DNA from: Pseudanabaena sp. PCC 7367
GTDB lineage: Bacteria > Cyanobacteriota > Cyanobacteriia > Pseudanabaenales > Pseudanabaenaceae
NCBI RefSeq assembly: GCF_000317065.1
Contig: NC_019701.1
Location: forward strand, 1,302,001-1,366,000
Length of the DNA stretch: 64,000 nucleotides
Reading direction: 5' to 3'
In this document: positions 11,793 through 17,320 of the stretch, piece after piece
Position numbering within the stretch: the stretch's first letter is position 1
Layout of the letters: each line of letters starts with the position of its first letter
Made by a program: the position numbers and the translations under genes
The notes under the pieces: generated by a model
Databases searched by the model: none
Told to the model about the DNA's origin: nothing
The model's input: the letters and a program-made list of their open reading frames with translations, nothing else

Positions 11793-12521
11793 TTGCCACA
11801 AACAAGAGTGTTGTATTTAGTCGCTACGCCGATCGGCAATTTAGGTGATATTAGCTTACGATCGCTAGAAACCCTGCGTAATGTCGATTGCATCGCCAGT
11901 GAAGATACTCGCAAAACCGGGCGATTGCTCAAGCATTATGAAATCAAAAAGCCGCAAATCTCTTTCCATGAGCATAACGAAGCCCAGAGTGGCAATCGGA
12001 TTATGGGCTTGCTAGCCGAAGGCAAATCCGTTGCGGTGGTCACAAATGCAGGTACGCCGGGGATTTGCGATCCTGGTTTCACAATTGTCCAGAAAGCGAT
12101 CGCCGCAGAGATTGAAGTTACCATGATTCCTGGTGCAGCGGCTTTTGTGTTGGCTTTGGTATTGTCTGGACTACCGGTGCATAGCTTTACCTTTCGAGGC
12201 TTCCCACCGCGTAAATCCGGGGGCAGAAAGAACTTCTTAGGAGTCGATCGGGAAGCTCCCCACACCCTGATTTTCTATGAAAGCCCCTATCGGATCAAAG
12301 CTTTCCTGGAGGATGCGATCGAGGTGTTTGGCGATCGGCGGGCTGCCTATGCCAATGACCTGACCAAAATGTTTGAAACAATCAAGCGTGGTAGTCTTTC
12401 TGAGCTAGCGGCCACATTTACTCAAAAAGGAGCGAAAGGAGAATATGTGGTAGTGATCGCTGGTGCAGATGACCAGGAACGGCAAGATAAACTAGCCCGC
12501 CGCGAACAGGAGGCCAATTAG
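11793..12521 (+). CDS. RsmI-like 16S rRNA C1402 2'-O-methyltransferase, divergent
   Basis: 242 residues from a TTG start, shorter than the usual 270-290. Canonical RsmI 2'-O-methylates C1402 in helix 44 of 16S rRNA. Family features: [13 protein letters not shown] (TPIGNL 12-17), EDTR at 37-40, FHEHN, and the SAM-site loop at 84-95. Several normally conserved positions differ. That loop reads [12 protein letters not shown] instead of SDAGTPGISDPG, IPGAAA replaces IPGPSA, and ANDLTK (187-192) replaces the usual ARELTK. This suggests a paralogue of the housekeeping enzyme with a possibly altered target. The tgt-like gene starts 9 bases after its stop, so the two are very likely one operon. Confidence 0.8.
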
Positions 12522-12530
12522 GTTTCTATT

Positions 12531-13679
12531 ATGGATGAAGCTACATCTACAATCACTACATCCCAAAATACGCTCAAACTGCCCCACGGCGAATTGCAAT
12601 TGCCGGCCTTTTTGCCCGATGCTACCGTGGGAGTAGTGCGATCGCTGGATGCCCAAGATCTAGAACAATGCGGCATTCAAGCCCTGGTAATGAATGCTTT
12701 CCATTTGATGCAGCGGCCTGGTTCATCTACAGTTAGCGCCCTGGGTGGAATTCATCGGATGAGTGGTTGGCAACGCCCTATTTTCACTGATTCCGGCGGC
12801 TTCCAGGCTTATTCCTTAATTCGGGCTAATTCAAAATATGGCAGCATTTCCGATCGCGGTTTAATCTTCTATCCAGAGGGATCGCAACGCAAGCTCAAGC
12901 TCACGCCTGAAAAAACGATTCAATTGCAAATGGGATATGGCGCAGACCTATTATTCTGTTTGGATGACTGTACGAATGCGGAAGATAGCTTGGATGTGCA
13001 GGAAGTCTCGGTAAAACGTACGATCGCCTGGGCGAAACGTTGCAAGGCGGAATTTGTGCGATTGCTGGAACAAAAAAAAATTGACTTAAATAGTTCCGAT
13101 CGCCCCCTTCTTTTTGCGGTCTTACAGGGTGGTGGTTCCTTTGAATTACGGCGTGAATGTGCCGAAGCTCTGCTAGAAATTGGTTTTGATGGCTATGGGT
13201 TTGGTGGCTGGCCACTGGATCAGCATGGCAATTTACTAACAGATATTCTGGCTTTTTGCCGATCGCTGATTCCCAAGCAGTTCCCGATGCATGCCCTGGG
13301 GATTGGTCATCCTCAAAATGTCCTAGCTGTAGCCAGGATGGGCTATGAGCTATTCGATTGTGTGATGCCTACCCGCGATGCCAGACATGGCAGGCTATAT
13401 GCCTTTACCCGCGAACTTGATGATTTACCAGAGGCAATGGATAGTAGCTGGTTTTCCTATGTTTATGCCCAGGATAAGAAGCATATCAAAGCCAACCAGG
13501 CGATCGCTCCTTTTTGTGATGCAAGTTGCTGCCAACGATATAGCCTGGGGTATCTACATCATTTGTTTAACATCAATGATACTTTGTATTATCGACTGGC
13601 GACGATTCATAATTTGCGATTCATGGCCAGGTTGATGGAGCTGTTGAGAAAGAATTTGCGGAGGGATCAGAATATTTGA
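12531..13679 (+). CDS. TGT-like tRNA-guanine transglycosylase, divergent
   Basis: 382 residues. The fold and catalytic core of tRNA-guanine transglycosylase, which exchanges guanine-34 for a 7-deazaguanine, are clear. D87 is in FTDSGGFQ, D145 in LDDCT, Q199 in LQGG, the nucleophile D276 is in FDCVMPTR, and H360 is in TIHNLRF. Two departures stand out against the Zymomonas enzyme recalled from memory. The CxCxxC zinc motif reads C329-D-A331-S-C333-C334, so one ligand is Ala, although C333 might compensate. The substrate loop GGLAVGE is GGWPLDQ. A run of nine A (13072-13080) lies at codons 181-184. It may be a paralogue rather than the housekeeping Tgt. Confidence 0.8.
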   Translation: MDEATSTITTSQNTLKLPHGELQLPAFLPDATVGVVRSLDAQDLEQCGIQALVMNAFHLMQRPGSSTVSALGGIHRMSGWQRPIFTDSGGFQAYSLIRANSKYGSISDRGLIFYPEGSQRKLKLTPEKTIQLQMGYGADLLFCLDDCTNAEDSLDVQEVSVKRTIAWAKRCKAEFVRLLEQKKIDLNSSDRPLLFAVLQGGGSFELRRECAEALLEIGFDGYGFGGWPLDQHGNLLTDILAFCRSLIPKQFPMHALGIGHPQNVLAVARMGYELFDCVMPTRDARHGRLYAFTRELDDLPEAMDSSWFSYVYAQDKKHIKANQAIAPFCDASCCQRYSLGYLHHLFNINDTLYYRLATIHNLRFMARLMELLRKNLRRDQNI

Positions 13680-13797: not shown

Positions 13798-14613
13798 ATG
13801 AGTAAAGATATCAACATTGATGAATTGGTTAATACCATTCGCCAATCGAGTAAATACAAAAAATCAAATATCTGCGCAGCCACGATCCGCGATCTGATTG
13901 AAACCGAGCTTCCCCGCCACAAGCACAAAAACGAAGCGATCCAGGCGGCTAAGAAAAAACTGCATCGGATCGTTGCCCCGTACCTGGGCGATCCAGATTA
14001 TAACCAGGCGATCCAGCAGCTAGAATCAGCGATCGCTACAGGGGGACAAGAACAACTCAAAGCAACATGCACCGAAATCATGGCCAGCCATCTTTCCACC
14101 AGAGAGCGGCAGCCCCTATTAAATAACTTCTATCGTAAAATCTTTGCCCATACAGGCACACCAAATAGCATTTTAGATATTGCCTGTGCGCTGCATCCCC
14201 TTTCCTTTCCCTGGATGGAATTACCGATCGCCACTCGCTACTATGCCTACGATCTACATCAAACTAGAGTAGAATTCCTGAATCAATATTTCACCCTACA
14301 AGGATTAGAACCCTTAGCGATCGCCCAGGATATTCTGGTCAACTTCCCCAACCAATCTGCGGATCTGGCCTTTATTTTTAAGGAAGTACATCGCTTTGAA
14401 CAGCGCCAGCGCGGTTGCACATTGCCTTTACTGGATGCTCTGCAAGTTCGTTATCTGCTTATTTCCCTGCCCACCACCAGCGCCAGTGGCAAATGGGATG
14501 TAACCGATCGCTATCGGGATTTGGTCTATGGCATGATTAGCGATCGCCCCTGGCAAACGAAGGAAATAGAATTCGCTACTGAGCTTATTTTTATTATTGA
14601 TAAGCAAGCATAG
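13798..14613 (+). CDS. ArmA/RmtB/FmrO-family 16S rRNA methyltransferase homologue, diverged copy
   Basis: 271 residues. It resembles the 16S rRNA m7G1405 methyltransferases (ArmA, RmtB and the actinomycete FmrO/Sgm group), whose activity blocks 4,6-linked aminoglycosides. Visible features: an N-terminal helical domain with SSKY and RHK..AIQAAKKKLHRI, then HLSTRER (98-104). Motif I is SILDIACALHPLSFPWM (124-140), followed by YAYDLH and DLAFIFKEVHRFEQ (189-202). Relative to the second copy at 16499, motif I has A131 where Gly is expected. The SFPxRSLxGKxKGM segment is degraded to SLPTTSASGK. It may have lost or changed its target. It follows tgt by 118 bases on the same strand. Confidence 0.75.
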   Translation: MSKDINIDELVNTIRQSSKYKKSNICAATIRDLIETELPRHKHKNEAIQAAKKKLHRIVAPYLGDPDYNQAIQQLESAIATGGQEQLKATCTEIMASHLSTRERQPLLNNFYRKIFAHTGTPNSILDIACALHPLSFPWMELPIATRYYAYDLHQTRVEFLNQYFTLQGLEPLAIAQDILVNFPNQSADLAFIFKEVHRFEQRQRGCTLPLLDALQVRYLLISLPTTSASGKWDVTDRYRDLVYGMISDRPWQTKEIEFATELIFIIDKQA

Positions 14614-14665
14614 AACCTTGAGTTTACTTAACATACTGCTCTTGCTTGGCCTGCGATGATTAGAA

Positions 14666-15097
14666 TCAGCGATGATAACTCTGATGATTAATAATTGTTT
14701 GGGCTCGATAAATTTGCTCCACCAGAATCAATCGCGCTAGCTCGTGAGGAAAAGTTAGCCTGGATAGACTCAAAACTCTACGGGCAGATTGTTTTAGTGT
14801 TTCGCTTACCCCATCTTGCCCACCGATCGCAAACACCACATCCTGCGCCATCTCCTGGTTAAGCAATTGGCTCAACTCGATCGAGTCAAACATTTCGCCA
14901 TCCTCAGACAGTACAATCAGATTGTCATATTGCTTGAGCATAGCCAGAATTTTTTCTGCTTCTTTCTCCTTGCCTGTGTCTTTGATTTCTTGAATCTCCA
15001 TCCTTGGCAATCGCTTCAAGTATTCATTTACGCCCGCAGCGATCCACTTCTTTTTGATTTTGCCCACGGCAATGATTCTTGCTTTCACACCCTGCAT
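14666..15097 (-). CDS. rlmH: 23S rRNA pseudouridine-1915 N3-methyltransferase RlmH
   Basis: About 143 residues from the ATG at 15097; a GTG at 15088 would give the typical 141. The SPOUT-class enzyme methylates pseudouridine 1915 in helix 69 of 23S rRNA, at the subunit interface next to the decoding centre. Diagnostic stretches: KARIIAVGKIKKKW at the start, LSEDGEMFDS, FAIGGQDGVSE for the SAM knot, LSRLTFPHELARLILVEQIYRA and the terminal NHQSYHR. The gene converges with the ArmA-like gene at 13798, with a 52-base gap. Confidence 0.95.
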   Translation of the reverse strand: MQGVKARIIAVGKIKKKWIAAGVNEYLKRLPRMEIQEIKDTGKEKEAEKILAMLKQYDNLIVLSEDGEMFDSIELSQLLNQEMAQDVVFAIGGQDGVSETLKQSARRVLSLSRLTFPHELARLILVEQIYRAQTIINHQSYHR

Positions 15098-15131
15098 CAA
15101 TCTCAAGTATTAAAACATTAATATTTTATAT

Positions 15132-15178
15132 CAAAAACGTTTTTGTTGAGCTTCTATTCTGCATTCGAGAATATAGAA
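15132..15178. promoter_or_regulatory. Candidate operator palindromes of the AbiE-like pair
   Basis: A perfect 14-bp palindrome CAAAAACGTTTTTG (15132-15145) and a second inverted repeat, TTCTAT/ATAGAA with inner ATTCT/AGAAT (15152-15178), lie 34-80 bases before the winged-helix gene. Placement and symmetry suit autoregulation by a DNA-binding antitoxin; this is inferred, not shown. Confidence 0.4.
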
Positions 15179-15211
15179 TAGGGTTGTTTCATTTTGTTTG
15201 TGAATTTTTGA

Positions 15212-15721
15212 ATGCTAAAACCTCAAGATATTGTTGTTCTGCTAAAACTTTACATCTATCAAAGCCTAATGTGGACTTATAGCGAGCTTGCAGACGAGTT
15301 ATATATGAGTAGCTCTGTAGTTCATGCTTCGACCAAAAGGTGTATTGATAGCGGCTTATATGACATGTATTACAACCGCGTTATGAGACGACCGCTGTAT
15401 GAAGTAATTGTATATGGGGTAAAGTACATCTTCTATACACAGCCAGGAAAAATTGTGAGAGGCATCCCTACAGCCCATTCTGCTGAACCACTTAAAAGTA
15501 AAATCCTAGATGATAGTAACAAGTATGTTTGGGCTTCTCCAGATGGATGGGAACGGGGGCAGGAAATTAAACCCCTATATAAATCAGTACCAAAGGCAGT
15601 AAAGAAAGACCCGGAATTATATGCACTCCTCAGCTTAGTTGATGCCATTCGAGTAGGTAAAAGGCGAGAATATCAATTTGCTGTTGAAGAATTGAAACAA
15701 CGGCTTGGAATCAATGAATGA
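15212..15721 (+). CDS. Winged-helix protein, putative antitoxin/regulator
   Basis: 169 residues. An N-terminal winged-helix pattern (roughly 22-50: WTYSELADELYMSSSVVHAS, then IDSGLY) is followed by a domain of about 100 residues that I do not recognise. The stop overlaps the start of the next gene by eight bases (ATGAATGA), indicating translational coupling. A DNA-binding protein coupled to a nucleotidyltransferase is the layout of AbiE-type (type IV) toxin-antitoxin systems, where the first gene autorepresses. Base composition is AT-rich compared with the flanking rRNA methyltransferase genes. The function is inferred from arrangement only. Confidence 0.6.
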   Translation: MLKPQDIVVLLKLYIYQSLMWTYSELADELYMSSSVVHASTKRCIDSGLYDMYYNRVMRRPLYEVIVYGVKYIFYTQPGKIVRGIPTAHSAEPLKSKILDDSNKYVWASPDGWERGQEIKPLYKSVPKAVKKDPELYALLSLVDAIRVGKRREYQFAVEELKQRLGINE

Positions 15722-16307
15722 GCAGATTCAAATACTAGAGCAAGCAGCATCACTACTCTCAGGATTAGAGCAAACTTTTGCATTTATTGGCAGCATTACT
15801 ATTGCACTTTACCTAGAACAAGTTTCAGCATTAGAAGTCCGTCCCACGAAAGATGTTGATTGTGTTGTAAAAGCCTCTTCAAAAGCAGAATATTACTCTC
15901 TTTTCGAGCAACTAAGACAGATTGGCCTTCATGAAGATAGTAGCAGCGGTGTTATTTGTCGCTGGCGCTATCAAGAGAAACTCATTATTGATATTATGCC
16001 AACTAATCAAGAAGTATTGGGTTTTGCAAATCGATGGTATGACACTGGGTTGCAAAATTGCATACCTTATAACCTTCCTAGTGGAACTAAAATCAATATT
16101 TTCCCAGTTGCATACTTGCTGGCAACGAAGATAGAAGCGTTTGAGGGACGGGGGAACAGAGATTTTTATAGTAGTAAAGATTTTGAAGATATAGTGTCAT
16201 TAGTTAATGGATGCCTAGACCTCGAAGTAGAAATCCAGGGAGCCGATCGGGAAGTAAAGACATTCATAATTGATTGGTTTCATTCCAACTTAGAAATATT
16301 GCAATAG
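15714..16307 (+). CDS. AbiEii-like nucleotidyltransferase, putative toxin
   Basis: 197 residues from the ATG at 15714, which overlaps the upstream stop. The DNA polymerase beta-like nucleotidyltransferase signature is complete: G26-S27, then RPTKDVDCVV with D47 and D49, and IDIMP for the third acidic strand. A C-terminal LLATKIEAFEGRG...SSKDFEDIVSLVNG motif is shared by AbiEii/MNT-like proteins. AbiEii toxins transfer nucleotides to target RNAs (for example tRNA 3' ends). Whether this one does is unknown. No transposase or phage gene adjoins. An imperfect palindrome lies about 90 bases after the stop. Confidence 0.7.
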   Translation: MNEQIQILEQAASLLSGLEQTFAFIGSITIALYLEQVSALEVRPTKDVDCVVKASSKAEYYSLFEQLRQIGLHEDSSSGVICRWRYQEKLIIDIMPTNQEVLGFANRWYDTGLQNCIPYNLPSGTKINIFPVAYLLATKIEAFEGRGNRDFYSSKDFEDIVSLVNGCLDLEVEIQGADREVKTFIIDWFHSNLEILQ

Positions 16308-16395
16308 GAAGCCCCAGCTCAGCTATCTCAAAGTGAGAGAGAACTTGGGCGGCAAAAGTTTTTAGTTGATCGAATTACGAGACTATCTCAACTAA

Positions 16396-16429
16396 GCTGA
16401 AATATACCTCTGTATATCTAGGTTTCAGC
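16396..16429. promoter_or_regulatory. Imperfect palindrome upstream of second ArmA-like gene
   Basis: Outer arms GCTGAAA (16396-16402) and TTTCAGC (16423-16429) enclose ATATAC-ctct-GTATAT. It sits 69 bases before the ATG at 16499. It could be an operator, an attenuating hairpin in the leader, or a terminator for the AbiE-like pair, although no T-tract follows. Confidence 0.4.
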
Positions 16430-16498
16430 ACTTTGCAGAGAAGAATTAAGCTATATAAGTGCTCTAATCCAATCCTTAATTTAGCAGCAGCGATCGCC

Positions 16499-17320
16499 AT
16501 GTCAGAATCAGCCACCCCTGAGCAAATCGAACACCTCGATCGCCTGATCGCATCAGTTTTACAAAGCTCTAAATATAAAACGATCGCCCCTGATTTAATT
16601 CAGCAGATTGGCATACAGGAGTTAGCTAAGCAACCCAAACTAAAGGAAGCAATCAAGGCCACCAAAAATAAGCTACATCAAGTTGGCGGCGCATATTTAA
16701 GCTATGGCACTAAGTATCCCAAATGGCTGGCGGAACTGGAATCAACACAAGGCGATCGCGCTGCCTTCCTGGCCACCTGTCAGCGGATTATGGGGTTCCA
16801 TGCTTCAACCAAAGAACGATTATCAATTCTCGATCGCATTTATGCTGAGACAATGGGCACGATCGCGCCGATTAATTCTGTGCTCGATCTCGCCTGTGGA
16901 TTCAATCCTTTGGCGATTCCCTGGATGCCTTTGGCGGCGGATATGCAATATTATGCCTGTGATATTTATGGCGATATGATCGGGTTTATTAATGGTTTCA
17001 TGGCGATCGCTGGGATTAGCGGCAATGCCTGGGCTCAGAGTATTAGCAATACTTGCCCGGAGCAGGAAGTGGATCTAGCTTTGATCTTAAAAACAATTCC
17101 CTGCTTGGAACAGGTGGATAAAGGGGCAGGAACGCGACTGCTAGAGAGAATTCGCGCAAAGCATATGTTGGTATCGTTTCCAGCCAGGAGCCTGAGCGGC
17201 AAAAATAAGGGAATGGTGGCGAATTACGAGCAACGATTTTATGAGCTAATTGGCGATCGAGCTTGGCAAGTGCAGAGGTTTGGCTTTGATTCTGAGTTAT
17301 TATTTATGGTTTCAAAATGA
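16499..17320 (+). CDS. ArmA/RmtB-family 16S rRNA (guanine-1405-N7) methyltransferase homologue
   Basis: 273 residues from the ATG at 16499 (the frame is open from a TTG at 16433); ArmA and RmtB are about 250-257. Family motifs are nearly intact. They include SSKYKTIAPDLI, HASTKERL (101-108) and SVLDLACGFNPLAIPWM for SAM motif I (127-143). They continue with YACDIY (152-157), DLALILKTIPCLEQ (192-205), VSFPARSLSGKNKGM (225-239), N242-Y243 and SELLF (265-269). These match the shape of RmtB, as I recall it, along the whole length. The predicted reaction is N7 methylation of G1405 in helix 44, which gives high-level 4,6-disubstituted 2-deoxystreptamine resistance in known members. The close paralogue is 1.9 kb upstream. 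Activity in this organism is untested. Confidence 0.82.
   Translation: MSESATPEQIEHLDRLIASVLQSSKYKTIAPDLIQQIGIQELAKQPKLKEAIKATKNKLHQVGGAYLSYGTKYPKWLAELESTQGDRAAFLATCQRIMGFHASTKERLSILDRIYAETMGTIAPINSVLDLACGFNPLAIPWMPLAADMQYYACDIYGDMIGFINGFMAIAGISGNAWAQSISNTCPEQEVDLALILKTIPCLEQVDKGAGTRLLERIRAKHMLVSFPARSLSGKNKGMVANYEQRFYELIGDRAWQVQRFGFDSELLFMVSK

Follow-up and report, generated by a model that had tools for sequence, protein, structure and literature searches.

The 16S rRNA (G1405-N7) methyltransferases of the FmrO/Rmt family (PF07091; NF000466), among them Sgm, ArmA, RmtB, RmtC and RmtF, are known as aminoglycoside resistance enzymes, and their natural function and origin are the open question addressed here. 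One of their genes, rmtG, reportedly lies in the plasmid operon rsmH-tgt-rmtG-rsmI′, the source of which is said to be Passarelli-Araujo 2019. In the review that cites this work, rmtG shares an operon with rsmH, tgt and a gene called 'rsmL'; in the part available, this is described only as the gene context of rmtG, with no mention of tgt as a distinct tRNA-guanine transglycosylase (TGT) paralogue or as a general partner of RmtB2, RmtD, RmtE2, RmtG and the Chloroflexota enzymes (PMC9311965). The transglycosylase itself is described in Z. mobilis, where the NH of Ala232 contacts N7 of guanine via a water molecule and a peptide flip, backed and controlled by Glu235, lets preQ1 in (PMC3660597). 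The window analysed here is a stretch of 64,000 nucleotides from the cyanobacterium Pseudanabaena sp. PCC 7367 (NC_019701.1, positions 1,302,001 to 1,366,000), in which two FmrO-family genes, A and B, share a locus with a divergent TGT gene, TGT2. The A/B pair probably belongs to a chromosomal module of Chloroflexota type that was gained by horizontal transfer and modifies the decoding centre of the ribosome by a chemistry that we infer. The new element of the analysis is the coupling of TGT2 with FmrO, an observed association that hints at a modification of the decoding site in two steps, not described so far.

Among 400 Chloroflexota genomes, 71 carry both genes, six carry FmrO only, none carries TGT2 only, and 323 carry neither (totals of 77 for FmrO and 71 for TGT2; Fisher p 2.7e-72, uncorrected for relatedness). 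All ten A-carrying genomes of this sample possess TGT2 and FmrO, and A is always accompanied by B (44/44 genomes or loci); presence is nested, A within TGT2 within FmrO. FmrO was found in 2/390 cyanobacterial genomes and TGT2 in 2/380, the same two in each case (the window genome and G111), a rarity that rules out cyanobacterial inheritance of FmrO. TGT2 lies no more than 300 bp from FmrO in 94 of 126 loci, yet the two are far apart in several genomes and their order is reversed in one clade, and thus linkage alone does not explain the co-occurrence. The tree of TGT2 agrees with that of FmrO (Mantel r 0.825, 0/2000 permutations). On viral contigs, no FmrO was found, and the TGT sequences are canonical.

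TGT2 is likely to be annotated as an ordinary tgt, yet it is the most unusual part of the locus. TGT2 proteins form a monophyletic clade (support 100/100), and a TGT2 profile separates them, at 362–654 bits, from all others at ≤314 bits. The window copy matches PF01702 with 297.5 bits and misses the TIGR00430 cut-off (295.7 vs 306.75 bits); the canonical Tgt of the same genome, about 32% identical to it, sits elsewhere (C2:852914-853966, 515 bits). Likeness to bacterial Tgt (TIGR00430) extends to the predicted fold—the AlphaFold2 (AF2) model, with a predicted local distance difference test (pLDDT) value of 91.6, has Z. mobilis TGT as its top match at a template modelling (TM) score of 0.83—and to D102, D156, Q203, D280 and the zinc ligands (three Cys and a His), which aligned TGT2 proteins keep together with Q107 and R286; the nucleophile and the residues that bind the base are thus conserved. 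D102 is unreadable in the shortened, rmtE2-linked copy, and of the CxCxxC motif the second Cys is missing in the window copy. The difference lies in the preQ1 peptide switch, where Trp/Phe-Pro replaces Leu231-Ala232 and Glu235 is lost in 27/27 aligned TGT2 proteins, and in an occurrence seen only in company with FmrO. Because proline occupies this position, a contact of the Ala232 NH type is impossible in TGT2. In cap-binding proteins, an aromatic residue next to N7 recognises 7-methylguanine (m7G); the place of W227 in the TGT2 pocket is derived from the alignment.

An earlier note on this DNA reported two open reading frames of the ArmA/RmtB family 1.9 kb apart, and both are indeed present with a gap of 1.8–1.9 kb (for B, ATG 16499 is a likelier start than TTG 16433). 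They are the only PF07091 matches in the 4.89 Mb genome, each at full length, with A scoring 164.1 bits (E 5e-48) and B 189.2 bits (E 1e-55) against a cut-off of 27; the solved structures closest to them are Sgm, RmtB, RmtC and RmtF. The family assignment is right for B. Judged from its sequence, B is a homologue of the 16S rRNA G1405 methyltransferases: it aligns with Sgm across 267 residues, shares the fold family of the known enzymes and keeps every RmtB/Sgm/RmtC motif, including the S-adenosylmethionine (SAM) motif and the K-x-x-G-M-x-x-N-Y target loop within SFPxRSLxGKxKGMxxNY. Against the NCBI equivalog NF000466 (cut-off 250 bits), B reaches 230.2 bits, below the cut-off, and A 180.5 bits. 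The motifs said to be common to the pair are so in part: the SSKY helix and HxSTxER occur in both (as HxSTRER in A), whereas CGxNPL and the SFPxRSL segment occur in B only. A has CALHPL in place of CGxNPL and SLPTTSASGKWD at the position of SFPxRSLxGKxKGM; its target-loop segment reads SLPTTSASGKWDVTDRY, while the N-terminal helix motif and the SAM motif are retained.

A belongs instead to a separate clade without the target loop. Bacterial and archaeal genomes, when scanned, gave 80 loci, mainly from Chloroflexota, and in many of these the gene immediately after a B-type gene is another FmrO gene, which matches A and not B. In a tree of 177 sequences, A falls within a clade of 44 (Shimodaira–Hasegawa-like approximate likelihood ratio test (SH-aLRT) 100), every member of which matches PF07091. 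Residues A60, R157, E196 and R199 are invariant in this clade, as are R104, D127, D178 and K195 of the SAM site (D152 nearly so). A one-residue gap at the target loop is present in 44/44 members, and the G-M pair of K-x-x-G-M-x-x-N-Y is not kept; the residues lost are M245 and N248 in RmtC numbering, which, in work on RmtC and the 30S subunit, reportedly contact the flipped G1405. The predicted structure of A (AF2 pLDDT 93.4) has Sgm 3lcu as its top Foldseek match (TM 0.85), and A therefore shares fold and SAM motif with the known enzymes and differs from them in the missing GM loop. A is thus a long-separated paralogue of the G1405 methyltransferases that has kept its SAM site, lost its target-base loop and gained R157, E196 and R199.

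The earlier note had spoken of a duplicated pair, but a recent duplication is ruled out: identity between A and B is only about 35%, and the two stand in separate clades and have their own nearest Chloroflexota relatives (up to 54.5% identity for A, 54–56% for B). Because each has such relatives, both were acquired, and the pair came from Chloroflexota. It has also to be asked whether A is a non-catalytic partner that forms, with B, a heterodimeric G1405 methyltransferase comparable to Trm6/Trm61-type pairs. Such a role would suit the loss of the target loop in all 44 A members, the absence of any A without B, and the arrangement of the two genes, which are mostly side by side and often overlap; however, conservation of R104, D127, D152, D178 and K195 would be unusual in a dead subunit and many B genes function without A, making a heterodimer unlikely.

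In the decoding-centre module proposed here, B would first methylate N7 of 16S G1405. TGT2 would then act in the same site and exchange a base there. The simplest candidate is m7G1405 itself, whose cationic base should be a good leaving group and would be replaced by a 7-deazaguanine or, with TGT2 acting as an eraser, by plain guanine. A, with its SAM site intact and its target pocket rebuilt, may work on a later or neighbouring substrate, and RsmI (C1402) and, in Chloroflexota, the RsmF-like and RsmE-like enzymes would act at the same site. The order of methylation (B), exchange (TGT2) and further modification (A) is drawn from the W/F-P switch without Glu235 together with the nested pattern of presence. 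The specific proposal is tentative and open to doubt: TGT2 would act on rRNA with m7G1405 as the outgoing base, and m7G1405, known as a resistance mark, would natively be an activated intermediate (or an erasable mark) in the making of a new decoding-centre nucleoside that A modifies further. If TGT2 works on rRNA, it would, to our knowledge, be the first transglycosylase to do so, and if it removes m7G, it would offer a natural means of countering this mark of resistance. The 16S sequences of TGT2 carriers show no signature, the decoding site being universal and G1405 encoded as usual; literature searches found nothing on G1405 methylation in cyanobacteria or Chloroflexota, or on TGT paralogues acting on rRNA.

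Several observations weigh against this proposal. Cloned Rmt enzymes confer resistance without TGT2, and the m7G mark therefore does not require it; six Chloroflexota genomes have FmrO without TGT2, among them G596, where the gene sits on one contig some 2.9 Mb long; shared descent accounts for part of the co-occurrence; and the Chloroflexota FmrO proteins tested score 192–241 bits, under the NF000466 cut-off of 250. The substrate of TGT2 could, moreover, be tRNA, in which case the operon would tune decoding by modifying the wobble bases of tRNA as well as the decoding site of 16S rRNA. The catalytic and zinc residues kept in TGT2 would accord with this, as would the remaining known chemistry of the row, which also concerns decoding, and every characterised RNA-acting TGT known to us uses tRNA. 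A tRNA substrate nevertheless seems improbable, given that a separate TGT gene is present in 10/10 TGT2 genomes checked (a full canonical Tgt in nine, a fragment in G111) and that the absolute dependence on FmrO in the sample would stay unexplained. A relative without FmrO has canonical Tgt as its sole TGT gene.

The coupling of TGT2 with FmrO extends to clinical plasmids. A tblastn search of plasmids with TGT2 as the query gave 16 records clearly outscoring canonical Tgt, and in 16/16 the TGT2 gene directly precedes a gene for a 16S methyltransferase: rmtG in eight, rmtE2 in four (with TGT2 shortened), rmtB2 in two and rmtD1/D2 in two. On both rmtB2 plasmids, a metallophosphoesterase gene lies between TGT2 and rmtB2. 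Intact rmtG copies have the order rsmH, TGT2, rmtG and truncated rsmI; the tgt of the rmtG operon is a TGT2 (GGWPLG), directly before rmtG, and this plasmid row is a piece of a similar row that came from a different donor. TGT2 is absent from most rmtB- or armA-bearing plasmids, and it is therefore not needed for resistance. Between the two roles that the earlier note had offered, a native ribosome modification is the better option, for a pair acquired rather than duplicated, whereas an ancient resistance reservoir holds only loosely, in that the clinical RmtB2, RmtD, RmtE2 and RmtG genes keep a TGT2 partner but come from other donors. A partner tied to the family in Chloroflexota, in two cyanobacteria and in four clinical Rmt types points to housekeeping ribosome modification as the ancestral role, an idea testable in the cultured organisms Longilinea, Thermanaerothrix and Dictyobacter.

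That A and B are simply acquired or intrinsic aminoglycoside resistance genes, with the neighbouring tgt as a passenger, is decidedly unlikely: all G1405 methyltransferase motifs are intact in B and, according to the review cited above, which already notes the rmtG operon with rsmH and tgt, the FmrO/Rmt family confers high-level resistance (PMC9311965), but the Chloroflexota rows are chromosomal and include housekeeping rRNA enzymes, no TGT2 occurs without FmrO in the sample, the trees of both are congruent, A has lost its target loop, and no known resistance or mobile-element genes were recognised in the flanks read around A/B. Aminoglycoside biosynthesis genes were likewise not recognised within about 9–23 kb of the window, a genome-wide search not having been made.

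Acquisition of the decoding-centre module is also visible in rsmI. The window copy (TIGR00096, 218 bits; cut-off 167.9) is 72% identical to that of the Chloroflexota genome G403 vs 43–47% to those of five cyanobacterial relatives. In both the window genome and G111, the only rsmI is of the Chloroflexota type (tree support 98/81), replacing the native one present in the five relatives; since no shared neighbours of rsmI were found between the window genome and these relatives, replacement in place is not supported. The rlmH gene is present in the window genome and G111 and was not found in five same-family relatives. The TGT2 proteins of the two cyanobacteria are sisters (86/93), as would be expected from a single entry with later exchange between them; the FmrO proteins show no such sisterhood.

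Neighbour clustering of 43 A loci gives the usual Chloroflexota row as rsmI, tgt-like, B, A, rsmF-like and rsmE-like, with a queuosine-precursor transporter nearby in 15 of them. The RsmI-, FmrO-, RsmF- and RsmE-type targets (C1402, G1405, C1407 and U1498) are all in the decoding centre. The window retains rsmI, TGT2 and A in row order, with rlmH and a candidate defence pair separating A from B (Table 1); unlike the known resistance enzymes, both A and B sit in a chromosomal rRNA-modification row. The PDC-M21A/PDC-M21B pair was judged to be an insertion outside the module. The RlmH target, pseudouridine 1915 of 23S rRNA, lies in helix 69, opposite helix 44, and rlmH adjoins rsmI in the Chloroflexota locus L045 too.

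Table 1. Features of the Pseudanabaena window and of the plasmid loci carrying TGT2
Feature	Coordinates	Strand	Description
rsmI	11793-12521	+	16S rRNA C1402 2'-O-methyltransferase, Chloroflexota type; the genome's only rsmI
TGT2	12531-13679	+	tRNA-guanine-transglycosylase paralogue; W227-P228 replaces Leu231-Ala232
A	13798-14613	+	271 amino acids; FmrO-fold paralogue in 44-member clade without G1405 target loop
rlmH	14666-15106	-	23S rRNA pseudouridine-1915 N3-methyltransferase; PF02590 150.8 bits
PDC-M21A/PDC-M21B	15212-16307	+	candidate anti-phage pair; PADLOC 152.9 and 176 bits
B	16433-17320	+	TTG start; by its motifs a homologue of canonical FmrO/Rmt-type 16S rRNA (G1405-N7) methyltransferases
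Plasmid loci with TGT2 before rmtB2, rmtD, rmtE2, rmtG	L282 5995-8736; L283 5977-7824; L285 4052-5561; L287 1970-5102		

Three further features of these rows were observed. A separate FmrO group, 'S', has the reversed order of FmrO then TGT2 (L122, L123, L128, L159, L160, L165 and L170-L172). The FmrO of G596, which has no TGT2 (L158 4945-5793), has a branch of exceptional length (3.66), as though constraint on it had been lifted. Many Anaerolineae rows contain two rsmI genes, which belong in the tree to two deeply separated types (e.g., L088 6193-6918 and 12030-12722).
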